Assembly (NCBI GenBank): GCA_903850335.1
Contig: CAINLJ010000260.1
Location: 41,021 to 105,020, forward strand
Length of the DNA: 64,000 nucleotides
Origin: an uncultured Bacteroidia bacterium
Lineage (GTDB): Bacteria; Bacteroidota; Bacteroidia; Bacteroidales; Prolixibacteraceae
Direction of reading: 5' to 3'
In this document: piece after piece, positions 2,618-63,647 of the stretch
Layout: every line of letters begins with the position of its first letter
Numbering within the stretch: the stretch's first letter is position 1
Notes under the pieces: generated by a model
What the model was told of the DNA's origin: nothing
The model's input: only the letters and a program-made list of their open reading frames with translations
Databases searched by the model: none
Position numbers and translations under genes: made by a program

Positions 2618-4444
2618 ATGACCCCGGTAAAAACAATAGAATTATTAGCGCCAGCAAAAAATCTGATCTGTGGTCTGGCAGCCATAAATCATGGTGCTGA
2701 TGCTGTTTACATTGGCGGTCCTAAATTTGGAGCACGGGAAGATGCCGGAAATTCATTTCAGGACATCGAAACGCTCGTATCCTCAGCCCGAATCTTTGGA
2801 GTCAAAGTTTTTGTTGCCCTTAACACGATCTTGTATGATAGTGAACTGGACGAAGCAGCTAACCAGATTACAAGATTATATGAGTTGGGTGTCGATGCTC
2901 TTATCATTCAGGATCTGGGTATTCTTGAGATGGATCTCCCTCCCATAGCCCTTCATGCCAGCACGCAGCTGCATAATTATCTGCCCGAACAACTGAAATT
3001 TCTCGAAGCGGTGCATTTCAGGCGGGCTGTTCTTGCACGTGAGCTGAGCCTCAGCCAAATAAAGGATATTCGAAGCCAGACGACTCTTGAACTGGAGGCA
3101 TTTGTCCATGGTGCACTTTGTGTAAGCTTTAGTGGAAGATGCTATTTGAGTCATGCAATTGGCGGTCGTAGTGCAAACAGGGGGGCATGTGCACAACCAT
3201 GCCGTAAACTTTATACCCTCTACGATTCAGAAAATAAGGTCATCACATCCGATCAGCACCTCCTCTCACTGAAGGATCTCAATCATTCACATTCAATCAG
3301 CGATCTGGCTGATGCCGGTATATCGTCGTTAAAGATTGAGGGACGGCTCAAGGATGTAGATTATGTAAAAAATATAACTGCATTTTACCGTCAGAAAGTT
3401 GATGCATTTCTTGAAGAAAAACCTGAGTTCATGTCTTCCTCTGCAGGAAAAACAACTGTAAGTTTTGAGGCGAATCCTTCAAAATCATTTAACAGAGGTG
3501 CCACAGATTATTTCCTGAATGGCAGGTCCAGGGAGATTACCTCGTTTAGTTCACCGAAATTCCTTGGGGAGACAATTGGTGTTGTGACTAAAGTGGATCA
3601 GCTTTTTTTTGAGACGGATAGTAAGGTAGAGATTTCAAATAACGATGGACTTGTTTTTTTATCCACTAAGGGTGAGAGTATAGGGATTAAGGTTAACACA
3701 GTCGCGAATGGAAGGATTTATCCGGATAAATTGAATGGTATTTATCCTGGAGCAATGATCCATCGAAATTATGACCATCGCTTTCAGGAAGAACTAAAGG
3801 GAGATCATACCCGAAGGAGAATATCCCTGAAAATTGAAATCGTTGATACTGAGAATGGATTTGACATCCAGGGAGTTGATGAAACCGGCACCACGGTTCT
3901 CTTGTCTTTTGAAATTCCAAAGATTCCTGCACGTGATGTTTTGAAATCAAAGGAAACTATCGTTCATCAATTATCAAAAGCAGGTGATACACCGTTTTTA
4001 GTAATTGATGTCAAAACAAATTCAACTGAAAAATATTTCTTTCAGGTTTCTGTACTAAATACAATGAGACGTGACCTGATTAACAGGATTACTGAAATCC
4101 GTATGAATAAATTGCCGGAAAGGGTAATGAATTTGCCAAATGACTTTCCCTATCCTGAGAAAAATATAGGTTATGAATGGAATATCAGCAACCATTTGGC
4201 AAGGAAGTTCTTCCAGCGCCATGGTGTAGAAAATCCTCAGATGGCCTTTGAGAAACAACCTGTGCACCACGGGAAAACTGTTATGACGACTAAGCATTGC
4301 CTAAAATTCCAATTGGGATATTGCCTTAGCTTTGGTGGGGTAAAGCCAAAGGAATTCAGAGAGCCCTTTTCTCTGAATGATGGCAAAAACAATCTTGGAC
4401 TCGAATTCGACTGCGCCCAATGTGTAATGAAAGTCATATACTAA
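2618..4444 (+). CDS. Peptidase U32 family protein (collagenase-like / RlhA-type)
   Basis: ELLAPAKNLICGLAAINHGADAVYIGGPKFGAR; FVHGALCVSFSGRCYLSHAIGGRSANRGACAQPCR; SLKIEGRLKDVDYV. Confidence 0.9.
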   Translation: MTPVKTIELLAPAKNLICGLAAINHGADAVYIGGPKFGAREDAGNSFQDIETLVSSARIFGVKVFVALNTILYDSELDEAANQITRLYELGVDALIIQDLGILEMDLPPIALHASTQLHNYLPEQLKFLEAVHFRRAVLARELSLSQIKDIRSQTTLELEAFVHGALCVSFSGRCYLSHAIGGRSANRGACAQPCRKLYTLYDSENKVITSDQHLLSLKDLNHSHSISDLADAGISSLKIEGRLKDVDYVKNITAFYRQKVDAFLEEKPEFMSSSAGKTTVSFEANPSKSFNRGATDYFLNGRSREITSFSSPKFLGETIGVVTKVDQLFFETDSKVEISNNDGLVFLSTKGESIGIKVNTVANGRIYPDKLNGIYPGAMIHRNYDHRFQEELKGDHTRRRISLKIEIVDTENGFDIQGVDETGTTVLLSFEIPKIPARDVLKSKETIVHQLSKAGDTPFLVIDVKTNSTEKYFFQVSVLNTMRRDLINRITEIRMNKLPERVMNLPNDFPYPEKNIGYEWNISNHLARKFFQRHGVENPQMAFEKQPVHHGKTVMTTKHCLKFQLGYCLSFGGVKPKEFREPFSLNDGKNNLGLEFDCAQCVMKVIY

Positions 4445-15419: not shown

Positions 15420-16289
15420 ATGGAGATATTTCTAAAAACCATCCTGGGACTTATGACAGGTCTCTTCGGGTATTTTTTTGCAGGTGATGTTTTTAAAAAC
15501 AGAAAACTGATCTCTGGGAAACCATGGTCAGTACTTCTGGGGATCGGATTCATCACCAACTTTTTCGATACCATGGGAATCGGAAGTTTTGCCCCACTGA
15601 CGGCTATCTTCAAGTTTCTTAAACTTGTCGATGACCGTGTTATTCCGGGAACTCTAAACGTCGGAAACACAATTCCAACTGTTGTTCAGGCGTTTCTTTT
15701 TATGACGATTGTCGAAGTAGACCCTGTAACCCTCTTCTCCATGTCAGCTGCAGCGCCCGTTGGTGCGCTGCTTGGCGCAGCCAGGGTAGCCAGGATGTCA
15801 CGCCGTACGATTCAGCTTGGATTGGGGTTTGGCCTTATGATCGTGGCACTTCTCATCATAGCTGGTTTTTTGGACCTTATGCCGGTAGGTGGTACAGCGA
15901 TTGGATTAACCGGGTGGAAACTAGTCTTAATTGTTTTTATATGCTTTATATTTGGCGCTTTGCAAACCATAGGTATCGGATTTTATGCTCCATGTATGGC
16001 TATGGTATACCTCTTCGGACTTCATCCTCAGACTGCTTTCCCGATTATGATGACAGCAACTGCCATGCTTATGGTTGCCGGCGGGGCAAGATTTGTCAAG
16101 GAAAATGCATATGACAGGAAAATATCTGTTTCACTGACGTTGGCAGGTGTTCCAGGGGTGTTTCTAGCTGCTTTTGTCTTCAAATCCTTGCCTTTAAATG
16201 TACTGAAAGGGATTGTGAGTGTAGTTGTTATGTATACCTCAGTTTGGATGTTTATATCTTCAACACGCAGTAACCCTGAGACAATTTAA
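15420..16289 (+). CDS. TSUP family (TauE/SafE-like) membrane transporter
   Basis: Hydrophobic ORF with duplicated TSUP-like halves: FFDTMGIGSFAPLTAIFKFLK...GTLNVGNTIPTVVQAF; IGIGFYAPCMAMVYLFGLHPQTAFPIMMTATAMLM. Confidence 0.75.
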   Translation: MEIFLKTILGLMTGLFGYFFAGDVFKNRKLISGKPWSVLLGIGFITNFFDTMGIGSFAPLTAIFKFLKLVDDRVIPGTLNVGNTIPTVVQAFLFMTIVEVDPVTLFSMSAAAPVGALLGAARVARMSRRTIQLGLGFGLMIVALLIIAGFLDLMPVGGTAIGLTGWKLVLIVFICFIFGALQTIGIGFYAPCMAMVYLFGLHPQTAFPIMMTATAMLMVAGGARFVKENAYDRKISVSLTLAGVPGVFLAAFVFKSLPLNVLKGIVSVVVMYTSVWMFISSTRSNPETI

Positions 16290-22390: not shown

Positions 22391-24289
22391 ATGTTACTTC
22401 GTATCCTTTTTTTTGTCATAAGCTCCTTCTCGATGACATTCGCTGCAAGCGCCGCCGACGTGCCGCTGGTAAGGCTTGGCGGTGAAGTAGGTGCGGCGGA
22501 AAGGTCCTCTATCAATCGCTTCCGTTATGTACCCTATGATTCACTACCCTGGATTCGTGCCGATCTCACGGGGGAGATTGCTTCCGAATTTGACGAAGCT
22601 GGCTGGGATCACATCCTGTTCCGCCCGTTCAAAAATTACTCCGGTGACATCTCTGGTCGCTTCATCGAGATCATGGCGATGAACTCCCGTGGCGATTACA
22701 ATGTGCACCCCGCGTTCAAGGCATTGTTGGCGGAGCTGCCAAAGCATCAGCGTCCGGGAGGCTATTTTGCCGCATCCGGCCTGATTGACTGGCTGAAGCC
22801 CATTGATCATAAAGACATTTATAAAAGCACCATGATGCCCGCCTTGTGGGGCAATGCGCGGTTGTTGTGCGGACTGGTGGAGGCAAGCCGGGCGTTCCCG
22901 GATAACCTGCACCTGCTGGTGATGGCACGCAGGCTAGGGGACTTCTATGTCGGCCTTATTCCGCGTTTCGCCGATCAGGCACATATGAGCGAGTACACCA
23001 GCGGTGATACTTATGCAGCAGGATATGTGACGTGTTATTTCCCGGCGATGGAGGGTCTGGTGAAGATGCATACCCTCACCGGTGAGCGGAAGTACCTCGA
23101 AGCCGCCGTCACCATGGCGGCTTTCTACAAACAATTCGACCACCTGCCTATTGACCATGCCCACGGTATGCTTTGTAACCAGGTGTCGCTGTTGATGCTG
23201 TACGAGGCAACCAGGGACGCATCATACCTTGAACGCGTTGAGCAACGCTGGGATGAACTCGTGATAGGCGGCTATATAAATCCAGCAGGTGGCATACTGG
23301 AGAAATGCCAGGTGAAGTTCACACGCGATGAGGGCTGCGCCATTGCCGACTGGCTGCGTCTGAACCTCGCGCTCGGCCGCGTCACAGGTAAGGCGCGGTA
23401 TTGGGAGATGGCAGAACGTACTCTGCATAATCATTTCCTCCAGAATCAGACGTCTAAAGGCGGCTTCGGTCATCGCAATATGCTATGCGACAAGGAAGGC
23501 GTCTATGGCTTTGGGAATTCATCTGAAGAGGCAGTATGGTGTTGTACTTTTCATTGCCAGCTTGGTTTTGTGAATCTGCGTTCGCATGTTATTAACCGTA
23601 GTGAGGTTGATCTTATCTGTAATTTCGCCTTGGATTTCACCGCCAGGTATGCGGATGGAACCTCGGTATCCGAAATACGTCCGGCTGCCGCTGTGGGGGA
23701 GGTGATGCGTCAGCGCATACTCCTTGACGGCCTTCCCGCCATGGTACTGCGAGTGCGACTGCCCTACTGGGCCGACGGGGTTACGGCGGTGGCTAAGGAT
23801 GGCAGTGCTCTGCCACTGGTGACAAAGAATGGTTTCTGCGCCACGACCAGGCCGGTGTCGGAGGCGACCTTCATCTATGCTGGCGGGATTTATGCAGAAG
23901 ACCGGCATTGCAAGCGCCTGCCTGCCGGCCCGGTCACTGGTGAGGCCTGTGTCATCGGTTATGGTCCAAAGCTGTTAGCGGCTCAGGGCCGCACGGCTGC
24001 CGTACCGAGGTGGCCCACTTCCATCGAGGTACTCAAGGCTCTGGGCCTGGCACCATTCTCTGCAACATTGCGCGGCAAGGAATGCTGCTTCGTGAGCGGA
24101 CCTTTGTCGCTTACTGTTTCCGGCAAGACCGTCTGCGGTGCTTCGCCGATTAGTGAGCGGTATACCTATGTCAGCACCGAAAGTTGCACCGGCTTGAACG
24201 CAACAGTGAGCTTTATGCTGGGATACGATTTAGCTGGATTCACATTAAACAGCTTTTACCACCTCATTCCCAACAATTCAATTCAGTGA
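22391..24289 (+). CDS. GH127-superfamily-like (DUF1680-like) putative beta-L-arabinofuranosidase
   Basis: Alpha/alpha-toroid-like ORF: TSGDTYAAGYVTCYFPAMEGLVKMHTLTGERKYLEAAVTMA. Contains E-x-C (TRDEGCAIADW) and C-C (EEAVWCCTFHC), resembling the GH127 Zn/Cys centre pattern (ETC...CC). Confidence 0.65.
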   Translation: MLLRILFFVISSFSMTFAASAADVPLVRLGGEVGAAERSSINRFRYVPYDSLPWIRADLTGEIASEFDEAGWDHILFRPFKNYSGDISGRFIEIMAMNSRGDYNVHPAFKALLAELPKHQRPGGYFAASGLIDWLKPIDHKDIYKSTMMPALWGNARLLCGLVEASRAFPDNLHLLVMARRLGDFYVGLIPRFADQAHMSEYTSGDTYAAGYVTCYFPAMEGLVKMHTLTGERKYLEAAVTMAAFYKQFDHLPIDHAHGMLCNQVSLLMLYEATRDASYLERVEQRWDELVIGGYINPAGGILEKCQVKFTRDEGCAIADWLRLNLALGRVTGKARYWEMAERTLHNHFLQNQTSKGGFGHRNMLCDKEGVYGFGNSSEEAVWCCTFHCQLGFVNLRSHVINRSEVDLICNFALDFTARYADGTSVSEIRPAAAVGEVMRQRILLDGLPAMVLRVRLPYWADGVTAVAKDGSALPLVTKNGFCATTRPVSEATFIYAGGIYAEDRHCKRLPAGPVTGEACVIGYGPKLLAAQGRTAAVPRWPTSIEVLKALGLAPFSATLRGKECCFVSGPLSLTVSGKTVCGASPISERYTYVSTESCTGLNATVSFMLGYDLAGFTLNSFYHLIPNNSIQ

Positions 24290-24316
24290 TAAATTTTAAT
24301 CTAATAAGTATAAGTT

Positions 24317-25705
24317 ATGTTCTCTAAAGAAATCTACGTACAACGACGCGAAAAGCTGAGAAAATCTGTGGGATCAGGATTGATCCTGCTACTTGGAAAT
24401 GATGAAAGTCCGATGAACTATGCCGATAATGGATATCATTTCAGGCAGGATAGTACATTCCTATATTTTTTTGGATTGAACCATCCGTACCTGGCAGCCA
24501 TTCTCGATTGCGAAACAGATGAAGATGTAATTTTCGGGAATGATCTTACAGTTGAAGACTTTGTCTGGATGGGACCGCAACCTGCAATAGCAACACAGGC
24601 AATGAAGGTTGGAGTGAGCAAATCAGGTGATATTGCATCATTGGTATCTTTACTGAAAGAGGCTTCTGTGAAGGGAAGAAAAATACATTTTCTTCCTCCT
24701 TACCGGCCCGAAAATAAGATCAAACTCTTTGAGTGGCTCAATATCGTCCCAGCTTACGCTAAAGAGTTGACATCATTAGACCTGATTATGGGCGTTATTA
24801 ATCAGCGTAATTACAAATCGCCTGAAGAAATCCTGGAAATCCGAAAGGCCTGTGATGTTAGTGTTGAGATGCATACACTGGCCATGCGAATGGCAAAACC
24901 AGGAGTTTCAGAAGCTCAGATTGCTGCCGCTGTCCAGCAGGTTGCAGTTGGGGCAGGAGGACAGATTTCTTTTCCCATCATTGCCACAATCAACGGACAA
25001 ACGCTTCATAACCATTATCATGGAAATGTTTTAAAAGATGAAGATATGTTTCTTCTTGATGCCGGAGCCGAAACGGCAATGGGTTATGCCGGTGATCTTT
25101 CAAGTACAATTCCTGTGAATGGCAAATTCACCTCTCGTCAAAAGGATATTTACTCGATCTGCCTCGACAGCCACAATACGGCAATTTCAATGCTGAAACC
25201 GGGTGTTCCATTTAAAGAGGTATATTTTGAATCATCCAGGGTAATCATACGGGGATTGAAAGATCTTGGACTTATGAAAGGCAATGTTGATGACGCATTG
25301 GCCAATGGGGCTCATGCCCTTTTCTTTCCTTGTGGATTGGGCCATATGATGGGGTTGGACGTACACGATATGGAAGACCTTGGCGAAGTTAATGTTGGCT
25401 ATGTTGGTGAGCCAAAAAGTACACAATTCGGTTTGAAATCACTGAGGTTAGGGAGAAAGCTTGAACCTGGGTTTGTGCTAACTATTGAGCCCGGTATTTA
25501 TCTTATCCCTGAACTGATAGACAAATGGAATGCAAATAACCATAATCGTGACTATATTAATTATGATAAACTAGAGGCCTATAAAACATTTGGAGGGCTT
25601 AGGAATGAAGAGGATTTCCTGATAACGGAAACCGGATATGAGTTGCTCGGAAAGCAGAAACCAAAGAACATTAATGAGGTGGAGTCTGAATGGGCAAAAG
25701 GATAA
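24317..25705 (+). CDS. Aminopeptidase P family protein (Xaa-Pro aminopeptidase)
   Basis: YVQRREKLRKSVGSGLILLLGNDESPMNYADNGYHFRQDSTFLYFFGLNHP; LLDAGAETAMGYAGDLSSTIPVNGKF; GHMMGLDVHDMEDLG; TIEPGIYLIPELID. Confidence 0.92.
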   Translation: MFSKEIYVQRREKLRKSVGSGLILLLGNDESPMNYADNGYHFRQDSTFLYFFGLNHPYLAAILDCETDEDVIFGNDLTVEDFVWMGPQPAIATQAMKVGVSKSGDIASLVSLLKEASVKGRKIHFLPPYRPENKIKLFEWLNIVPAYAKELTSLDLIMGVINQRNYKSPEEILEIRKACDVSVEMHTLAMRMAKPGVSEAQIAAAVQQVAVGAGGQISFPIIATINGQTLHNHYHGNVLKDEDMFLLDAGAETAMGYAGDLSSTIPVNGKFTSRQKDIYSICLDSHNTAISMLKPGVPFKEVYFESSRVIIRGLKDLGLMKGNVDDALANGAHALFFPCGLGHMMGLDVHDMEDLGEVNVGYVGEPKSTQFGLKSLRLGRKLEPGFVLTIEPGIYLIPELIDKWNANNHNRDYINYDKLEAYKTFGGLRNEEDFLITETGYELLGKQKPKNINEVESEWAKG

Positions 25706-26010
25706 ATACATGAGCACGGATCTGTAGCTAATTAGAATATTTCTAAATATGAGGGAATTGATTGATCTGTTTATGTTTCGCCGTAGCTTTGTTTTACTGT
25801 AAAGAGCATTATTCAACCAGATAATTTTATCCCATATTGAGTGGATTAATGGAAACAATCATTTACATTCCAAACCTGGTCAAAACTTATAGACGTTTGT
25901 TTGAGTGCCTGATGTTCTATCATTAAGGTCGTCTCTTCTTTTGTTCCCTTAGTCTATTTTATAGTTTGTAAGATCTAATATTATGGTAATCATTTATTTA
26001 TCTTTAGATT

Positions 26011-26018
26011 TACCTTTG
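26011..26018 (+). promoter_or_regulatory. Possible Bacteroidota -7 element (TAnnTTTG) upstream of the glycyl radical enzyme gene
   Basis: TACCTTTG, 22 bp before the ATG at 26041. No convincing -33 TTTG at the expected spacing. Confidence 0.35.
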
Positions 26019-26040
26019 TTAACTTTCAGAAAGTATCATC

Positions 26041-28503
26041 ATGTTTGAAAAAATAAACACCCATACGTCTGTTCCTGAAAGAGCGGCATCTGCAGAGGGA
26101 AACTTTTATCCTTCCTCTGCAACCAGCAATAGCCCAGGAATGAATGAGCGGATACAAAAACTCAGAAAGCTGAGTTTTGAAACGGAACCTACTCTTTCGA
26201 TCGAACGCGCCTTGCATGAAACGGCTTTTTATAAGGAAAACTACGGGAAATATTCCATCCCTGTCTTACGCGCGTTGAACTTCCTCGATCATTGTAACAA
26301 GAAAATTATTTATATTGGAGAAGGTGAATTGATTGTGGGTGAGCGCGGGCCCAAGCCGAAGTGCGTCCCTACATTCCCCGAACTTACCTGTCACAGCGTT
26401 GAAGATTTTCATGTGTTGAATACACGTGATATGCAACGCTATTCCATCAGTCAGGAAGATATTGATCTCTACGAAAAAGAGGTAATCCCTTACTGGAAAG
26501 GCAAAACCCAGCGAGAGCGCATTTTCTGCCATGTTCCTGATGAGTGGAGAGCCGCTTATGAGGCAGGATTGTTTACGGAGTTCATGGAGCAACGCGCACC
26601 CGGACATACTGCCCTGGATGGAAAGATCTATCAAAAGGGAATGATTGATTTTAAAAAGGAGATCGAGGTGAATCTTGCCTTGCTTGATTATATCAACGAC
26701 CCTGAAGCTACCGACAAGGCCGAACAATGGAAAGCAATGGATATCGCTTGTGATGCTGCGATTCTTTTTGCCCGCCGCCACGCCGAATTCGCTGAGAATC
26801 TGGCACTGACAGAGGATGATCCTAACCGGGCTATTGAACTATGGAAGATTTCAGAGGTATGCCGTTGGGTACCAGCACATGCACCGAGAAACCTCTGGGA
26901 AGCAATCCAAATGTATTGGTTTGTTCACTTGGGAACAATTACTGAGTTAAACGGGTGGGATGCGATGAATCCTGGCCATTTTGATCAGCACCTGACTCCG
27001 TTTTATAATAAGGAAATAGTAGAAGGAACCCTTTCAAGGGAGGAGGCAAAGGAACTTATCTCCTGCTTCTGGATTAAAGTAAATAACCATCCTGCTCCTC
27101 CCAAGGTTGGCATAACAGCAAGGGAAAGCGGAACCTATAATGATTTCACAAACATTAATATTGGAGGCGTCAAAAGTGACGGTACAGATGGTACGAGTGA
27201 AGTCTCTTACCTGATGCTTGAGGTAATCGAGGAACTTCATATTCTCCAACCTGGTAACTCGGTCCATATAAGCACCAGGACACCTGACAGATTTCTTCAT
27301 GCTGCAGCTCATGTCATCAGGCAGGGACATGGCTATCCTTCTGTATTTAATGCAGATATCTATATTCTTGAGATGCTCCGTCAGGGAAAAACGTTGCAGG
27401 ATGCGCGCGAAGGTGGTTGCAGTGGGTGTATCGAGGTTGGTGCTTTTGGCAAGGAAGCCTATCTGCTGACGGGTTACCTCAATGTGCCCAAAATTTTGGA
27501 GGTTACCCTGAATAATGGTATTGATCCTGTGACGGGGAAAATAGTTGGCATTCATACAGGTGACCCAAGCGAATTCAGCACTTTTGGACAGCTTTACGAA
27601 GCATTCCGTAAGCAATTACAATATGTAGTTGACCAGAAAATGCGGGTAAGCAATTATATTGACAGAATGTTTGCAAAATACGCGCCAGCGCCATTCCTCT
27701 CAGTCGTTATCGATGACTGTATCAGTAAAGGCCGGGACTATTATGACGCTGGGCCACGTTACAATACGAGCTATATTCAATGTTGCGGTCTTGGAACAGT
27801 CACAGATAGCCTTGCCGCATTGAAAAAGCACGTATTTGAGGAAAAAACATTCCCCATGGACCGGATTTTGCAAGCATTGCTTGGGAATTTCAAAGGAGAG
27901 GAACTACTTCGACAGACGATTATCAACCGAACCCCGTTTTTTGGTAATGATGATGATTATGCGGACACCATTGCGGTTCAGATTTTCAACGATCTGGTAG
28001 ACACTATTGATGGGAAACCTAATATCAAGCCTGGTGGAAAATATCATCTGAATATGCTGTCAACAACTTGCCATGTCTATTTCGGGAAAGTGATGGGCGC
28101 CACCCCCAACGGGCGTTTAGCCGGAAAGTCAATCTCTGACGGCACATCGCCATCGCACGGAGCAGATACGCACGGGCCCTCTGCTGTTATAAAATCATTG
28201 ACGAAGATCGATCATGTAAAAACAGGTGGAACACTGCTGAATCAGAGGTTTCTGCCGGGATTGTTGCGTAAGGAGGAAGATATCAAAAAACTTGGCCAAC
28301 TTATAAGAAGTTATTTCACTCTGGGAGGGCATCATATCCAATTTAACATTGTCGATACAGCGACATTAATGGCTGCACAGGCTTGTCCTGAAGATTACAG
28401 GGACTTGCTTGTACGGATGGCTGGTTACAGTGATTATTTCAATGATATGAACGCTGATCTTCAGAGGGAAGTGATCGAGCGCACTGAAAATGACTCATTT
28501 TAA
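26041..28503 (+). CDS. Glycyl radical enzyme, HypD-clade-like (trans-4-hydroxyproline dehydratase-like); substrate uncertain
   Basis: Catalytic loop REGGCSGCIEVGAFGKEAYLLTGYLNVPKILEVTLNNGIDP (Cys463) and C-terminal glycyl-radical motif RMAGYSDYF (Gly795). Overall resembles HypD as recalled (FMEQRAPGHT, MYWFVHLGTITELNGWDA, GGHHIQFN). Alternative start at 26140 (MNERIQ). Confidence 0.85.
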   Translation: MFEKINTHTSVPERAASAEGNFYPSSATSNSPGMNERIQKLRKLSFETEPTLSIERALHETAFYKENYGKYSIPVLRALNFLDHCNKKIIYIGEGELIVGERGPKPKCVPTFPELTCHSVEDFHVLNTRDMQRYSISQEDIDLYEKEVIPYWKGKTQRERIFCHVPDEWRAAYEAGLFTEFMEQRAPGHTALDGKIYQKGMIDFKKEIEVNLALLDYINDPEATDKAEQWKAMDIACDAAILFARRHAEFAENLALTEDDPNRAIELWKISEVCRWVPAHAPRNLWEAIQMYWFVHLGTITELNGWDAMNPGHFDQHLTPFYNKEIVEGTLSREEAKELISCFWIKVNNHPAPPKVGITARESGTYNDFTNINIGGVKSDGTDGTSEVSYLMLEVIEELHILQPGNSVHISTRTPDRFLHAAAHVIRQGHGYPSVFNADIYILEMLRQGKTLQDAREGGCSGCIEVGAFGKEAYLLTGYLNVPKILEVTLNNGIDPVTGKIVGIHTGDPSEFSTFGQLYEAFRKQLQYVVDQKMRVSNYIDRMFAKYAPAPFLSVVIDDCISKGRDYYDAGPRYNTSYIQCCGLGTVTDSLAALKKHVFEEKTFPMDRILQALLGNFKGEELLRQTIINRTPFFGNDDDYADTIAVQIFNDLVDTIDGKPNIKPGGKYHLNMLSTTCHVYFGKVMGATPNGRLAGKSISDGTSPSHGADTHGPSAVIKSLTKIDHVKTGGTLLNQRFLPGLLRKEEDIKKLGQLIRSYFTLGGHHIQFNIVDTATLMAAQACPEDYRDLLVRMAGYSDYFNDMNADLQREVIERTENDSF

Positions 28504-28511
28504 TTAATATT

Positions 28512-28544
28512 AAACCTCGAAGGTTTTCAAAACTTTCGAGGTTT
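28512..28544 (+). terminator. Intercistronic hairpin between glycyl radical enzyme and activase genes
   Basis: AAACCTCGAAGGTTTT (28512-28527) / C / AAAACTTTCGAGGTTT (28529-28544): 16-bp stem with one mismatch, then ATTTTA. Confidence 0.7.
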
Positions 28545-28553
28545 ATTTTACTT

Positions 28554-29462
28554 ATGTCCGAAAGTTTAATCTTTGATATTAAACGTTATGCCATTAACGA
28601 TGGACCAGGCATACGTGTTGTAATTTTTTTTAAGGGGTGCAATCTTCAGTGCGCCTGGTGCCATAATCCTGAAGGCATTTCAGGGAAGGCTGAGAAAATG
28701 TATTCACCTTCAAAATGCATTAAATGCGGTACCTGCGTTGAGGTTTGCCCTGAAAGTGCAATAACACTGACACCTGAGGGTATTGTTAGCGATGATAAAC
28801 ATTGCATATTGTGCGGAAGATGTGCTGAAATTTGCCCGACTAAAGCCATTGAAATGTCAGGTAAAAGTATGTCTGTTTCCGAAATAATGGAAATTATTGA
28901 AAAGGAAAGGATTTTTTTCGATAATTCGGGTGGCGGTGTTACATTTTCAGGCGGTGAACCCCTTATTCACTCTGGAATGCTGATTGAACTGCTTGATCAA
29001 TGTCGCCTTAGAGGTATTCACAGCGCTGTTGATACAGCTGGTCATGTGAGTACCGAAATTATAATCGAAGTTGCCAAACGGACAGACCTTTTTTTGTATG
29101 ATTTAAAGATGATGGAGAGCGGTTTACACAAGGACTGGACACATGTGTGTAATGAAAGGATTCTACAAAATCTTACTGCTATTGCTGGTACAGGAGTTGA
29201 TATTATCATTCGGATTCCGCTGATAGGAGGGATTAATGATACGGATGAAAACATTAATCAAACTGCCGTGTTCATTGCTGGTCTTGAAGGTAATATAAAG
29301 GAGGTTCACCTTCTTCCTTACCATAGTATTGCCCAAAACAAATACAATAAGCTCAGTAAATCAAAGAGCTTTGAAAAGTTAATGGAGCCTGCTAGAAGTA
29401 CGCTTGACCGAATTATTTCAATTTTTGCACGGTACGAGATTAAGGCAAGTATCGGAGGTTAA
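28554..29462 (+). CDS. Glycyl-radical enzyme activating protein (radical SAM with ferredoxin-like insert)
   Basis: FFKGCNLQCAWCHNPEG (CxxxCxxC); two ferredoxin-type cysteine clusters CIKCGTCVEVCPESAI and CILCGRCAEICPTKAI; VTFSGGEPL. Confidence 0.93.
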   Translation: MSESLIFDIKRYAINDGPGIRVVIFFKGCNLQCAWCHNPEGISGKAEKMYSPSKCIKCGTCVEVCPESAITLTPEGIVSDDKHCILCGRCAEICPTKAIEMSGKSMSVSEIMEIIEKERIFFDNSGGGVTFSGGEPLIHSGMLIELLDQCRLRGIHSAVDTAGHVSTEIIIEVAKRTDLFLYDLKMMESGLHKDWTHVCNERILQNLTAIAGTGVDIIIRIPLIGGINDTDENINQTAVFIAGLEGNIKEVHLLPYHSIAQNKYNKLSKSKSFEKLMEPARSTLDRIISIFARYEIKASIGG

Positions 29463-58829: not shown

Positions 58830-61800
58830 ATGAAAATATTTATAGCTTTTATTCTCTTATTCTTTTTTACGCAACTTATCGTTGCTCAGAAGATTGATGT
58901 GTATCAGCGTCCGGTTCAGCATGAACGGCCAAGGGATTTTGATGCTCTCCATTACAGGATCTCGCTGAATATAGATATGAATAGCAAGAGCCTTACAGGA
59001 GAGAATCGGATTTCCCTGGTGCCTCTCAATGATAATTTTGATAAATGTGTTCTCGATGCTGAATACCTGGTTGTAAGTCACGTAACCAATGAAAAAGGGG
59101 AAGAGTTCTCTTTTGATCAGAAAGAAAAGCAGATTTTTATCGGCATGCCTAAAACTTATAACCATGCTGATACGATTATTTTTACAGTAAAATATTCGCT
59201 CAACAAGCCTGTTGCGGGTTTGCTCTTCATCGATGAGAAATCTACAAATCCCCAAATGGTATCTTCCGACTGCTGGCCTGATAAAGCCAGACAATGGATC
59301 CCCTGCTACGACTACCCCAACGATAAGGCAACTAATGAAATGATTGTCACGGTAGACAAGAAGTATAAAGTATTGTCAAATGGCAGACTGGTAGGTGTTA
59401 AAGAAAATAGTCTTCAAGGGACTAAGACCTATCATTGGAGCCAGGAACTTCCCCATTCAACTTACCTCATTAACCTGAGCATTGCAGATTACGCAGTAAT
59501 TAAGGATTCTTTAAGATCACTTCCAGTAAATTACTGGGTGTACAAAGGTCTTGAAAATGAGGCAAAGACCACCTTCCGAAAAACGCCTTATATGATCAGT
59601 TTCTACAATAAGTTATTCTGCTATGACTATCCATGGGCTAAATATGACCAGGTCATTACATCATACATGGGTGGAGGGGCTGAAGCGACTACGGCCACAT
59701 TACTCGGTGAAGGAATTGTAATGGACACGTTAGCAGAAAAGGATTTTTCCAGGGAGGGAGTTATTGCCCATGAAATAGCCCATCAGTGGTGGGGAGATCT
59801 GATTACCCTAAGAAGTTGGGAACATAATTGGCTGAATGAAAGTTTTGCAACTTATTCCGACTACTTATACACCAGGTACGATAAGGGTGAAGATGCCGGA
59901 GCCTTTGACCTGCTTGGTAAAAAAAATCAATACCTGAATGAGGCCCATAACAAATATCTGCGGCCAATTGTATTTAACAGGTTTAACGGACCAGCTGATA
60001 ACTTCGACAGCCATGCATATCCCAAAGGTGCATGTATGTTACACCTTCTGCGCCATATCCTCGGAGATGAAACTTTTTTTAGGATATTAAGTACATTTCT
60101 GCATCAGAATGCTTTTAGGCCGGTGGATACCTATGACCTTATGAAGGCAGTCAAAGAAGTGAGCGGTAAAAATATGGATTGGTTCTTTGAGCAGTTTATC
60201 TTCAGTCCAGGTCATCCGGTTTTTGAAGTCAGCAAGTCCTGGAATGCGACCACAAAAAAGTTAACACTCACAATTCTTCAAAAACAGGATTCAATACCAG
60301 GAGTACCGATATACACCATACCCGTTAATCTTGGCTTTGTTTTTCCTGGTAAGAAAAATACAAAAGAAGTCTGGCTCAAAGATAAATCTACAACTCTTGA
60401 ATTCGATTTTGACTCGGAACCTTTGCTCGTAAGATTCGATGAGGGAAATTTTCTTCTTAAAGAGTGCAGGTTTAAAAAAGCACTTCAGGAATTGTTATAC
60501 CAGGCAGGCAATGACGATATGATCGGCCGGTTGACAGCACTAAAAGAACTTGAACCTTACAGCTGCGAAAGGGCTGTTCTTTTGTTGTGGACAAATCTTG
60601 CCACACAGGATAATTTCTGGGCAGTCCGGCAGGCTGCCCTGGAAAACGTAGGCAAATACAATTGTCAGAATGGTATCGAATTGTTCAAGGCATGCCTCAG
60701 GGATAAGAATTCAAAAGTAAGGAGGTCTGCGGTAAAGATCCTTGGCGAATTGAAGGATCCACGATTTATCAGGCTGTTTAAAGAAATGTTCAAGGCAGAA
60801 AACAGTTATGCTGTCCAGGCAGAATTGGTGAAATCTATTGGCAAATGCGGTGGCCAGCAACAATTGCGATTCCTAAAAAATGCCGAAGCCATAAAATCTT
60901 ACGGCAATGTTGTTAGCAAAGCTTCAACTGAAGCCATCAGTTCGATAACAAAGAAATTAGCTCCCCCAAACATTATTTTAATCGTTACGGATGATCAGCG
61001 TTGGGATATGTTGGGTTGTGCAGGGAACAATATTATTCAAACTCCAAATATTGATAATCTGGCAAACCATGGTGTCCGGTTTACGCATGCTTTTGTTACC
61101 ACACCGATCTGTGCTGCAAGCCGAGCCAGTATTATTACAGGATTATTTGAGCGAACCCACGAATACACTTTTAATAAACCACCTGTAAAAAAAGCCTTCA
61201 CAGATAAAAGTTATCCGTATCTACTCAGGCAGGCTGGTTATCGTACCGGATTTGTGGGGAAATTTGGTGTTAAAACGGAAGATGCCATTGATAGTTTATT
61301 TTCGTGGAGTAAGATAAATGGATTTCCATACTGGAATATAGTAGATGGGAAAAAGAAGCATCTTACAGATATTCAGGGAGAGCAGGCTATTCAGTTTATT
61401 AGGGAATCAACTCCCGGGAAACCATTCTGCCTTTCACTAAGTTTCAGTGCACCGCATGCCGATGATGATTCAAAGGAGCAATATTTCTGGCCCCAATCTT
61501 TGGATAGTTTATATCAGAACGCAGTCATTCCGGTACCAGCAACTGCTGATCCTGCATTTTACGAAGCACTTCCAGAATTTCTGAAAGGAACTATGAATCG
61601 CGAACGCTGGTATTGGCGTTTTAACACCCCTGAGAGATTTCAGCAATACACCAAAGGATATTATCGGATGATTACCGGAATCGATCAGGTTGTTGAGAAA
61701 ATCCGCAAAGAATTAGACGTGCTTAAAATTGCCGGGAATACAGTCATACTTTTGATGGGAGATAATGGTTATTACATTGGAGACAGAGGGTATGCCGATA

Positions 61801-62261
61801 AATGGCTGATGCATGATGTCTCCATCCGCGTGCCCCTCGTCTTCTATGACCCCCGAAGATCAGGTTCTTATAGCAAGGTTTTAAATCAGATGGTGTTGAA
61901 TGTTGATGTTTCGCCTACAATTATGGATCTTTCTGGTATCCCCGTTCCCACGAATATACAGGGTAAAAGCCTGTTACCATTGATTTCAGGGGCTCAGGCA
62001 AAATGGAGGAGTTCAATTTTCTGTGAACATCTGATGAATGAGCCAAGGATTCCGAATAGTGAATGCATCAGGACGGAAGAATGGAAATTTATACGCTATC
62101 CTAAACATCCTGAATATGTTGAATTATACGATCTTAAAAATGATCCCTGGGAGGAACACAACCTGGCCGGAAATCCTCAGTTTGAAAATCAGATTATAAA
62201 ATACCAAAAACAATGCGATTTTAAAATTAAAGAATTAATAAGAGCCAGAGTTAAGAAATAA
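58830..62261 (+). CDS. Fusion protein: M1 family aminopeptidase + HEAT-like repeats + sulfatase
   Basis: M1: GGGAEATTATLLGEG and HEIAHQWWGDLITLRSWEHNWLNES (HEXXH-X18-E). HEAT-like: NFWAVRQAALENVGKY, NSKVRRSAVKILGELKDPRFI. Sulfatase: PPNIILIVTDDQRWDMLGCAGNNIIQTPNIDNLANHGVRFTHAFVTTPICAASRASIITG (CxAxR) and LLMGDNGYYIGDRG. No stop or frame break. Confidence 0.9.
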   Translation: MKIFIAFILLFFFTQLIVAQKIDVYQRPVQHERPRDFDALHYRISLNIDMNSKSLTGENRISLVPLNDNFDKCVLDAEYLVVSHVTNEKGEEFSFDQKEKQIFIGMPKTYNHADTIIFTVKYSLNKPVAGLLFIDEKSTNPQMVSSDCWPDKARQWIPCYDYPNDKATNEMIVTVDKKYKVLSNGRLVGVKENSLQGTKTYHWSQELPHSTYLINLSIADYAVIKDSLRSLPVNYWVYKGLENEAKTTFRKTPYMISFYNKLFCYDYPWAKYDQVITSYMGGGAEATTATLLGEGIVMDTLAEKDFSREGVIAHEIAHQWWGDLITLRSWEHNWLNESFATYSDYLYTRYDKGEDAGAFDLLGKKNQYLNEAHNKYLRPIVFNRFNGPADNFDSHAYPKGACMLHLLRHILGDETFFRILSTFLHQNAFRPVDTYDLMKAVKEVSGKNMDWFFEQFIFSPGHPVFEVSKSWNATTKKLTLTILQKQDSIPGVPIYTIPVNLGFVFPGKKNTKEVWLKDKSTTLEFDFDSEPLLVRFDEGNFLLKECRFKKALQELLYQAGNDDMIGRLTALKELEPYSCERAVLLLWTNLATQDNFWAVRQAALENVGKYNCQNGIELFKACLRDKNSKVRRSAVKILGELKDPRFIRLFKEMFKAENSYAVQAELVKSIGKCGGQQQLRFLKNAEAIKSYGNVVSKASTEAISSITKKLAPPNIILIVTDDQRWDMLGCAGNNIIQTPNIDNLANHGVRFTHAFVTTPICAASRASIITGLFERTHEYTFNKPPVKKAFTDKSYPYLLRQAGYRTGFVGKFGVKTEDAIDSLFSWSKINGFPYWNIVDGKKKHLTDIQGEQAIQFIRESTPGKPFCLSLSFSAPHADDDSKEQYFWPQSLDSLYQNAVIPVPATADPAFYEALPEFLKGTMNRERWYWRFNTPERFQQYTKGYYRMITGIDQVVEKIRKELDVLKIAGNTVILLMGDNGYYIGDRGYADKWLMHDVSIRVPLVFYDPRRSGSYSKVLNQMVLNVDVSPTIMDLSGIPVPTNIQGKSLLPLISGAQAKWRSSIFCEHLMNEPRIPNSECIRTEEWKFIRYPKHPEYVELYDLKNDPWEEHNLAGNPQFENQIIKYQKQCDFKIKELIRARVKK

Positions 62262-62414: not shown

Positions 62415-63647
62415 ATGAGATTGAAAGACTACAGACATACTACCATCAGTAAAAACTTATTGAGTAAGCATAATAAATCATGCATTTTACATACCATATG
62501 GGAGAATAAAGGAATTTCAAGAGTTGAGATTGCCCGTAACACCAATTTGAGTACTGCAACCGTCTCCCGACTAGTCGATTCTCTAATCAAAAATGACAAG
62601 TTATTGGAAGAGCGCGAAACTATCGCTATTTCTAAAGGTCGCCCAATGAAATCACTTTATTTTGGAAATAATGAGCGATTTATTATTGGAATTGATATTG
62701 GAACAACCTTCATAAGAGGTATGCTTACCAATATGAATGCTGAACCAATTAAAGAGATTGAAGTCGTTACTGAATCATTAAGAGAACCTGAATATGTTTT
62801 AAATAAGGTCGTTGACATGATAGACCGTCTTTCGAATACCAGTATGGTCAAGAGAGATCAGATTATCGGTGTAGGAATAGCTGTAGCCGGAACTGTTAAC
62901 CTTGAGAAAGGGATTGTTGTATACTCCCCTGCTTTTAACTGGCGGAACGTTCAGTTTTACGATTACATACAAAGCCGTATTAATTTGCCCCTTTTCTTCG
63001 ATAATGTCAACCGGGTTATGGCACTTGGTGAGTTAACATTTGGAAAGGGTAATGAATATGATAATATGATTTGCATTAACGTTGGTTACGGGATCGGTGC
63101 CGGGATTATTATCAATAAAAAACTTTTTTATGGTACAGACGGTATGGCCGGAGAATTTGGTCATGTTCCGGTTGCCGGCGACAACCTTATCATTTGTGCC
63201 TGCGGAAATAAGAATTGCCTGACCGCCTATTCATCAGGGGATTCCATTGCCCAAAGAGTCAGACTTTTGATGAGGGAAAAGTCATCGGAAATATTAATGA
63301 AATTATGCAATAGTAAACCAGAAGACCTGACGGCTAAAATTGTAGGAGAAGCTTTTCGCCTGAATGATCCAATTGCACGGCAAGTGTTTCAACAAGCCAT
63401 TTTCTACCTCGGACAATCCATAGCAGGACTTATTAATACCTTTAATCCGCAGGTCGTTTTTATTGGTGGTGGCGTGCCCCAAAGCGGTGATATTTTCTGG
63501 GAGCCCCTTAAAGAGATCGTAAATGAAAATGTCTTTGACAGGCTTTCAACAAAATATCAAATACTACCTGTCACTTTTCTTGACAGGGCTGCGATTTATG
63601 GCGCAATTGGCCTGGTGATTAAGGAAATTCTCAATATGGATATATAA
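62415..63647 (+). CDS. ROK family transcriptional regulator with N-terminal HTH (copy 2)
   Basis: HTH SRVEIARNTNLSTATVSRLVDSLIKNDKLL; IIGIDIGTTFIRGMLTNMNAEP; GEFGHVPVAGDNLIICACGNKNCLTAYSSGD. Paralogous to 30212-31432. Confidence 0.9.
   Translation: MRLKDYRHTTISKNLLSKHNKSCILHTIWENKGISRVEIARNTNLSTATVSRLVDSLIKNDKLLEERETIAISKGRPMKSLYFGNNERFIIGIDIGTTFIRGMLTNMNAEPIKEIEVVTESLREPEYVLNKVVDMIDRLSNTSMVKRDQIIGVGIAVAGTVNLEKGIVVYSPAFNWRNVQFYDYIQSRINLPLFFDNVNRVMALGELTFGKGNEYDNMICINVGYGIGAGIIINKKLFYGTDGMAGEFGHVPVAGDNLIICACGNKNCLTAYSSGDSIAQRVRLLMREKSSEILMKLCNSKPEDLTAKIVGEAFRLNDPIARQVFQQAIFYLGQSIAGLINTFNPQVVFIGGGVPQSGDIFWEPLKEIVNENVFDRLSTKYQILPVTFLDRAAIYGAIGLVIKEILNMDI

Follow-up and report, generated by a model that had tools for sequence, protein, structure and literature searches.

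The sequence analysed here, which we call the window, is a 64,000-nucleotide (nt) stretch of contig CAINLJ010000260.1 (G000:C260:41021-105020), part of the 5.5-Mb draft assembly GCA_903850335.1 of an uncultured Bacteroidia bacterium of the family Prolixibacteraceae (order Bacteroidales); the genomes, contigs and loci used for comparison carry G, C and L numbers. Four open frames lie on its plus strand at positions 22391-24289, 24317-25705, 26041-28503 and 28554-29462, and the first-pass annotation, which had read them as consecutive genes for a GH127-like enzyme (GH, glycoside hydrolase), an aminopeptidase P, a HypD-like enzyme and its activase, was right in that all four are present. Their spacing is uneven: 27 nt separate the GH127-like gene from the peptidase gene, and 335 nt separate the latter from hypD, with a small open reading frame (ORF) lying at 25849-25926 inside this gap. 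We report here that this ORF belongs to a family of conserved peptides, probably leader peptides, and we propose that it forms, with pepP2, hypD and hypE, a unit for the use of trans-4-hydroxy-L-proline (Hyp) from peptides in which it would control hypD.

The gene at 26041-28503 (plus strand) is firmly identified as hypD, which encodes the glycyl radical enzyme trans-4-hydroxy-L-proline dehydratase. Its product scores 1172.7 bits against model NF043068, over the curated equivalog cut-off of 1100, which bears out the earlier HypD-like call. The closest solved relative is 6vxc, itself a trans-4-hydroxy-L-proline dehydratase, and the alignment to it spans nearly the whole length of the protein. 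All 13 active-site positions that were checked in this alignment are retained, namely F152, whose numbering we assume, and D278, S334, D339, F340, C434, E436, Y450, T645, H160, R156, K326 and G765. The roles of such positions in Hyp binding and radical catalysis are described in PMC7077986, which also presents HypD as an abundant gut and environmental enzyme. The adjoining gene at 28554-29462 (plus strand), which we label hypE, is predicted to encode the glycyl-radical activase of HypD: it matches TIGR02494 with 340.3 bits (cut-off 174.35), and T4HPD_activ_SAM is the best of all models at 349.7 bits, below its own cut-off of 425. A HypD above cut-off is encoded in 79 of the 140 family genomes; of 71 hypD loci, 70 include hypE. 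The window's genome holds a second intact hypD-hypE copy on C250; ProC was not found among the scanned window genes and is encoded above cut-off elsewhere in the genome. The hypD genes fall into a clade A, to which that of the window belongs, and a clade B, and clade-A HypD is about 50-57% identical to clade-B enzymes of the same order. Several clade-B hypD genes of the order sample (for example in G211, G187 and G371) carry one or two in-frame TAA, TAG or TGA codons and are pseudogenes or assembly errors.

The gene at 24317-25705 (plus strand), pepP2, is predicted to encode a cytosolic aminopeptidase P or prolidase-fold M24B enzyme of a second, non-housekeeping type, for which PepP2 is our own label. 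The protein has AMP_N and M24 domains (PF05195 and PF00557), retains in its alignment to 5m4g the metal ligands D, D, H, E and E at what we take to be the M24B ligand positions, and shows by eye no signal-like sequence at its N-terminus. The 61 PepP proteins placed in a tree fall, with 100/100 support, into two types, one housekeeping (14 rows) and a second one (47 rows) that includes the window gene. Nine of the 47 PepP2 rows, against none of the 14 housekeeping rows, have HypD or a 4-hydroxyproline epimerase operon no more than about 10 kb away, a count in which six PepP2 rows had been chosen first for their nearness to HypD. About 16 further PepP2-like genes stand outside this count; they were compared with HypD alone, by contig or position, and none adjoins it. 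Across the 71 hypD loci, no gene cluster beyond the hypD-hypE pair occurs in more than seven, and PepP is among those at seven.

In G091 and G092, the order pepP2-hypD-hypE is that of the window, with a gap of about 350 nt. PepP2 also lies beside hypD in G023, G113, G099 and G098, all of the other hypD clade: pepP2 directly follows hypD in G023 and G113, where hypE comes first, a peptidase of the dipeptidyl peptidase IV (DPPIV) type lies between hypD and pepP2 in G099, and such a peptidase directly precedes pepP2 in G098. In G113, G094 and G105, pepP2 adjoins genes for 4-hydroxyproline epimerase (above cut-off in G113 and G094), D-amino acid oxidase, dihydrodipicolinate synthase (DHDPS) and aldehyde dehydrogenase. 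Upstream of the C250 copy of hypD-hypE, a broken pepP2 remnant (L083, G000:C250, 6849-7596, minus strand) consists of residues 4-24, 74-150, 305-410 and 407-461 in differing frames with pieces missing. Trees identify this C250 copy, and not that of the window, as the ortholog of the G091/G092 locus, in which pepP2 is intact; the window pepP2 is the only intact one that a search of its genome recovered. The link between peptidase and HypD drawn in the first-pass annotation is thus supported by the presence of PepP2 beside hypD in separate lineages, and also by a leader family, described below, that precedes hypD, PepP2 and DPPIV-type genes alike. Judged by its sequence relatives and neighbourhoods, PepP2 is a member of the hydroxyproline unit and would act on Hyp peptides. 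In L106 (G113), L172 and L195, pepP2 stands beside a complete-looking oxidative 4-hydroxyproline operon; L106 brings hypE, hypD, pepP2 and the oxidative genes close together on the same strand with one opposite-strand gene between, which juxtaposes two rival Hyp pathways.

The small ORF at 25849-25926 (plus strand), which is unannotated, comprises 25 codons and a stop (METIIYIPNLVKTYRRLFECLMFYH) and lies 114 nt upstream of hypD. It emerged from an alignment of the pepP2-hypD gaps in five congeneric loci, where it forms a block conserved in a codon-like manner, and it is present in G080 too, where no PepP adjoins hypD. The C-terminal end of this leader, hereafter form A, reads YRRLF-x-C-LMFY and contains a near-fixed core, [RK]-x-L-[FY]-x-C-x-[MI]. 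All 62 unique core forms share the Tyr, the Leu, the Cys and the last Tyr, 61 have the Phe and 59 the Arg; this invariance is partly set by the search pattern, though the family forms had first been found by DNA similarity. Amino-acid conservation in these 62 forms is concentrated near the C-terminus. A start codon stands exactly 25 codons before the stop in 59 of 70 unique forms (ATG in 51).

Within the family, leader A lies 46-322 nt before hypD in 47 of 50 clade-A rows (45 of 48 without two duplicate rows). A strict DNA core pattern gave 55 matches in 52 of the 140 family genomes and none in a reversed control, and the window's own ORF matches the exact pattern, for which 0 matches are expected in shuffles; 30 of these family loci (31 of the 55 matches) were read, and the other 24 matches were compared with HypD by coordinates. 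Two matches in the loci read had no HypD in reach, one being the outer copy of a tandem in G028 and the other lying in G049, where an S9-fold gene (weak, 36.4 bits) is found about 310 nt downstream. The tandem of G028 (L324, L233) consists of two leader ORFs 1.3 kb apart upstream of one hypD. Named public genomes contain pattern matches in at least 115 stretches, of which 80 loci with 81 matches are listed, all such counts being lower bounds. HypD lies just downstream in 65 of the 81 matches listed; the other 16 include three leader-like matches at a sequence end (L249, L278 and L282), L255 before PepP2 and the outer tandem copy L324, and the remaining 11 look like chance. Carriers of leader A among the matches listed belong to Bacteroidales, Flavobacteriia, Desulfobacterota (with the completely sequenced Desulfopila sp. 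IMCC35008 among them) and metagenome-assembled genomes (MAGs) of Ignavibacteriae, Calditrichaeota and Anaerolineae; a cultured carrier is Draconibacterium orientale FH5T, with its leader in L266. In a HypD tree built by a quick method, the Desulfobacterota and Anaerolineae sequences nest among those of Bacteroidota, which suggests that the leader was transferred together with hypD into these two groups.

Clade-B hypD, in which hypE comes first, has a leader of its own (form B), mostly 24-25 codons long and located just before hypE in 17 of 20 family loci, with the sequence ...LYHxFGKGL[FY]ECWI and the signature GKGL[FY]ECW. Searched for regardless of the downstream gene, the strict B pattern gave 31 matches in 31 of 386 order genomes and none in the reversed control. 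All 30 leader B loci that were read precede hypE-hypD (25 loci, hypD itself being seen in 23), a DPPIV-type peptidase gene (four loci: L399, L409, L417 and L419) or a second-type PepP gene (L418); once, the leader occurs in a genome in which our search found no HypD (G145). With up to one mismatch allowed, the B pattern gave 21 matches in 21 of the 140 family genomes, against two for the reversed control, and 18 of the 21 lie upstream of clade-B hypD by coordinates; the other three are in G016 (C16), G093 and G110. The matches G093:C326:4326-4349 (exact) and G110:C49:399-422 (one mismatch) are on contigs for which no hypD is listed and could be further regulon members or chance. Leader A, for its part, lies about 95 nt before a PepP gene on the type-2 side of the tree (long branch) in a Bacteroidales MAG (L255). 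Since the leaders precede hypD, DPPIV-type and PepP2 genes, they pick out the same peptidase types as the gene neighbourhoods do, and the occurrence of one leader family before DPPIV-type and PepP2 genes indicates that it marks a regulon.

The codon pattern gives strong evidence that selection acts on the leader peptide. As a test on the core codons is biased by the pattern used to find them, weight was put on codons outside the pattern and on a +1 frame control. For leader B, 70% of single-change codons outside the search pattern are synonymous (17% expected), against 19% in the +1 frame (26% expected). For leader A forms chosen by DNA similarity alone, the corresponding values are 48% for the N-terminal codons (26% expected) and 89% for the three codons before the core (27% expected). 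Position, start spacing and codon pattern together point to translation of a short ORF within the operon's 5′ leader; its existence, coding nature and specificity, like the enzyme identities and the type and associations of PepP2, are read from sequence. Neither the A nor the B peptides had a Pfam match, and the literature searched, consisting mostly of non-subscription papers, yielded no account of a hypD leader or of how hypD is switched on. Leader peptides are a known kind of element; this leader family and its regulon appear to be new.

The leader stop is directly followed by a pyrimidine-rich, G-poor stretch (25927-25966, plus strand), recognized by its C>G count and lack of excess structure, which may be a Rho-loading site. 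Over the 40 nt that follow the stop, C outnumbers G in 56 of the 70 A leaders and in 28 of the 30 B leaders, compared with 206 of 479 control gene ends. This RNA is no more structured than shuffled sequence (mean z of -0.60 for A, n=24, and -0.61 for B, n=30), and we set aside an intrinsic attenuator downstream of the ORF for this reason. By analogy, the RNA after the leader looks as a Rho-loading site beside a leader would. According to PMC8429421, TnaC, a peptide of 24 residues, stalls with tryptophan and hides the Rho utilization (rut) site of tna. The C>G bias and the lack of excess structure after the leader led us to propose a metabolite-sensing arrest peptide, and the leader is probably TnaC-like in this respect.

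We propose the following scheme, in which ribosome stalling, its ligand, the involvement of Rho and the action of PepP2 on Hyp peptides are what we infer. Prolyl and hydroxyprolyl peptides would be imported and their Xaa-Pro and Xaa-Hyp bonds cleaved in the cytosol by PepP2; HypD, activated by its radical S-adenosylmethionine partner, would dehydrate free Hyp to pyrroline-5-carboxylate, which the ProC encoded elsewhere would reduce to proline. The nascent 25-codon leader peptide would stall its own ribosome when an inducer is present and in this way set hypD expression. The inducer would most likely be Hyp or a Hyp/Pro dipeptide, the natural candidate since the three kinds of controlled gene have nothing else in common. 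By sitting on the C-rich, G-poor RNA just past the ORF, the stalled ribosome would keep Rho from ending transcription, as with TnaC in tryptophan breakdown. We put at roughly 60% the probability that the intact pepP2-leader-hypD-hypE unit uses Hyp from imported peptides, with the leader as a stalling switch for hypD that marks a regulon and with the GH127-like gene as an unrelated neighbour. A wider proposal, which we hold tentatively and at somewhat less than even odds, is that an undescribed family of leaders of about 17-26 residues, with the forms ...YR[RC]LFxC[LWR][MI][FL]Y... and ...LYHxFGKGL[FY]ECW..., senses Hyp or hydroxyprolyl/prolyl dipeptides in the ribosome, blocks Rho by stalling and co-induces hypD, PepP2 and DPPIV-type genes; it would be ancient in Bacteroidota, where it accompanies two hypD clades of opposite gene order, and would have moved with hypD into Desulfobacterota and Chloroflexota.

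Several observations weigh against this reading. The strict motif is missing from three clade-A family loci, and three of the 20 clade-B family loci are without leader B; elsewhere in the order, 23 clade-A hypD loci of other families divide into eight with the strict motif, six with a shortened one, two with a B-like one by eye and seven in which none was found. In leader A, between 1 and 9 residues (in most cases 1) separate the core from the stop, which does not resemble an arrest placed strictly by the stop, and for Rho loading the C>G bias at gene ends is a poor proxy. No leader was found upstream of the oxidative 4-hydroxyproline operons of G094 and G105 (L172 and L195), which could also come under a pure Hyp sensor. 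As regards the peptidase, PepP2 scores 200 bits against the NCBIfam equivalog PRK10879, whose cut-off is 465, and in 38 of the 47 PepP2 rows neither HypD nor the epimerase is nearby. A relaxed pattern likewise revealed no leader upstream of the family PepP2 loci away from hypD (L164-L217).

The peptide could instead be a working small protein, for instance a subunit or chaperone of HypD or HypE, as its strong amino-acid conservation, its conserved position by hypD and its movement between phyla along with hypD would allow. We consider this unlikely, given that the peptide also stands ahead of DPPIV-type and PepP2 genes without an adjacent hypD, in G145 even without a HypD found in the genome, and that the shortest forms have about 17 residues, length and N-terminus being free and one short core being kept. 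Quite unlikely in our view is a classical attenuator, in which slow decoding of chosen codons such as those for Cys, Trp or Arg in starvation would set hypD expression: an invariant Cys, and in form B also a Trp, does lie near the end of the ORF, but there is no run of Pro or of any other single codon, codons vary freely at third positions, and the RNA past the ORF showed no conserved terminator or other structure (mean z about -0.6). That PepP stands beside HypD by chance, as a housekeeping aminopeptidase P and accidental neighbour, is hardly credible. Most PepP2 genes do lie elsewhere, and 9 of 47 against 0 of 14 rows is no strong contrast when taken alone; against this, the genome has a separate housekeeping-type PepP on C44, PepP2 recurs in unrelated neighbourhoods, on either side of hypD, beside hypD genes of clades A and B alike and beside the oxidative Hyp operon, and leader peptides are found upstream of PepP2. 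The pepP2-leader-hypD-hypE unit with a stalling leader remains our preferred reading.

A further alternative concerns the gene at 22391-24289 (plus strand), which encodes a GH127-like (clan GH-P-like) secreted glycosidase, with a signal-like N-terminus by eye. The first-pass annotation had tentatively made it the first step of one dedicated locus for glycoproteins of the extensin or arabinogalactan type, in which GH127 strips arabinofuranose from Hyp glycopeptides, PepP cuts the backbone and HypD consumes the Hyp. The protein scores 58.4 bits against PF07944 (cut-off 24.9) and matches no NCBIfam model. A phmmer comparison with HypBA1 found nothing at E values up to 10; in a profile search, HypBA1 matched with an E value of just 0.0036 over a C-terminal part, and 5opj, which we take to be the GH146 enzyme BT0349, was best (E 2.5e-23). 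The ExC...CC zinc-cysteine motif is kept, E314, C316, C384 and C385 being invariant among six aligned proteins. The roles of these residues, which were matched by eye, are taken from PMC10850190, which also reports that GH127 and GH146 enzymes act on Hyp-linked arabinofuranose. With its cysteine-zinc motif intact, the protein probably has glycosidase activity, but nothing links it with Hyp.

This motif and the activity of its clan speak for a dedicated glycoprotein locus, as do the tight spacing of the GH106-GH106-GH127-PepP genes (last two gaps of 47 and 27 nt) and the presence of PepP2 of the window's subclade near sulfatase, GH29, GH78 or LamG genes in the glycan loci of G030, G093 and G085. 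We nevertheless give this route a slim chance. Among the hypD loci compared, the pepP2-hypD loci of G091 and G092 lack the GH127-like gene and none of the others was seen to carry it, conservation of the neighbourhood having been named in the first-pass annotation as a check on its own proposal. Matches at E<=1e-15 occur in six genomes besides its own among the 140 family genomes (26-35% identity) and in one besides its own among a 295-genome order sample. PepP and HypD are missing from five neighbourhoods of these relatives, three of which, partly annotated, hold GH29, GH2, GH28 or M14 genes. The gene is also the tenth by score of 11 PF07944 matches in the window's genome, and the protein is far from HypBA1. 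We rejected it as a member of the unit for its lack of conservation with hypD and as one of 11 such genes; on sequence grounds it is an unrelated neighbour. Of the earlier interpretation, "cleave then dehydrate" is retained and "deglycosylate" is not. PepP2 in glycan loci lends slight support to a weaker form of the glycoprotein idea, slight because these genomes are rich in such loci.

With the pepP2-leader-hypD-hypE unit as our preferred reading, the interest of the locus shifts from glycans, which are not supported, to peptides. If this reading is true, a leader common to hypD, PepP2 and DPPIV-type genes would provide a direct and testable control mechanism for HypD, along with a sequence tag for unknown members of a regulon for peptides of Hyp, collagen or hydroxyproline-rich glycoproteins. 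It would also add a metabolite-sensing nascent peptide to phyla in which, to our knowledge, few such cases are known.

In the flanks, domain searches recovered GH106 (three), GH78-like, GH95, GH31, SusC/SusD and sulfatase domains. Of the extra peptidases reported downstream, one was recovered, as the peptidase M1 part of the frame at 58830-62261, and no other peptidase domain was found among the frames scanned (62415-63647 was outside the scan). This single open frame is an unusual fusion, in which the M1 domain is combined with HEAT repeats and a complete sulfatase domain. The product of 2618-4444 has U32 and DUF3656 domains and is named "Collagenase" in Pfam; we take such proteins to be RNA-hydroxylation factors, and hence no evidence of collagen use. 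A 72% relative of the TauE-type gene at 15420-16289 adjoins pepP2 in G030 (L166), within a sulfatase/GH29/SusC cluster. An Rfam scan of the window gave no matches. Between 22000 and 31000, scans for promoters (22 sites, 20.3 expected) and terminators (7 sites, 8.1 expected) were at chance level; the hairpin at 28511-28545 (plus strand), located between hypD and hypE, with 16 pairs followed by a T-rich tail, has much the longest stem and could reduce activase expression relative to HypD.

Compared with known systems, the window's HypD belongs to the same family as 6vxc/6vxe and retains all active-site positions checked, whereas the clade-A gene precedes its activase and has its own leader. The oxidative 4-hydroxyproline operon (epimerase, D-amino acid oxidase type, DHDPS type and aldehyde dehydrogenase) also includes PepP2 in G113, G094 and G105; its chemistry differs, and no leader was found ahead of it in G094 or G105. 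The GH127-like protein resembles the GH127/GH146 (clan GH-P) beta-L-arabinofuranosidases in its PF07944 match above cut-off and its ExC and CC motif, and differs in its distance from HypBA1 and in the lack of conservation of its gene beside hypD. Between the leader and TnaC of the Escherichia coli tryptophanase operon we noticed no sequence likeness by eye. By the description of TnaC in PMC8429421, the two are of similar length (24 residues for TnaC, mostly 25 here), both sit ahead of a catabolic operon for one amino acid, and both are followed after the stop by C-rich, G-poor RNA, where tna has its rut site. Unlike TnaC, the leader described here places its core 1 to 9 residues before the stop, its ligand, stalling and Rho dependence are putative, and it stands ahead of genes for Hyp and prolyl peptides in other phyla.

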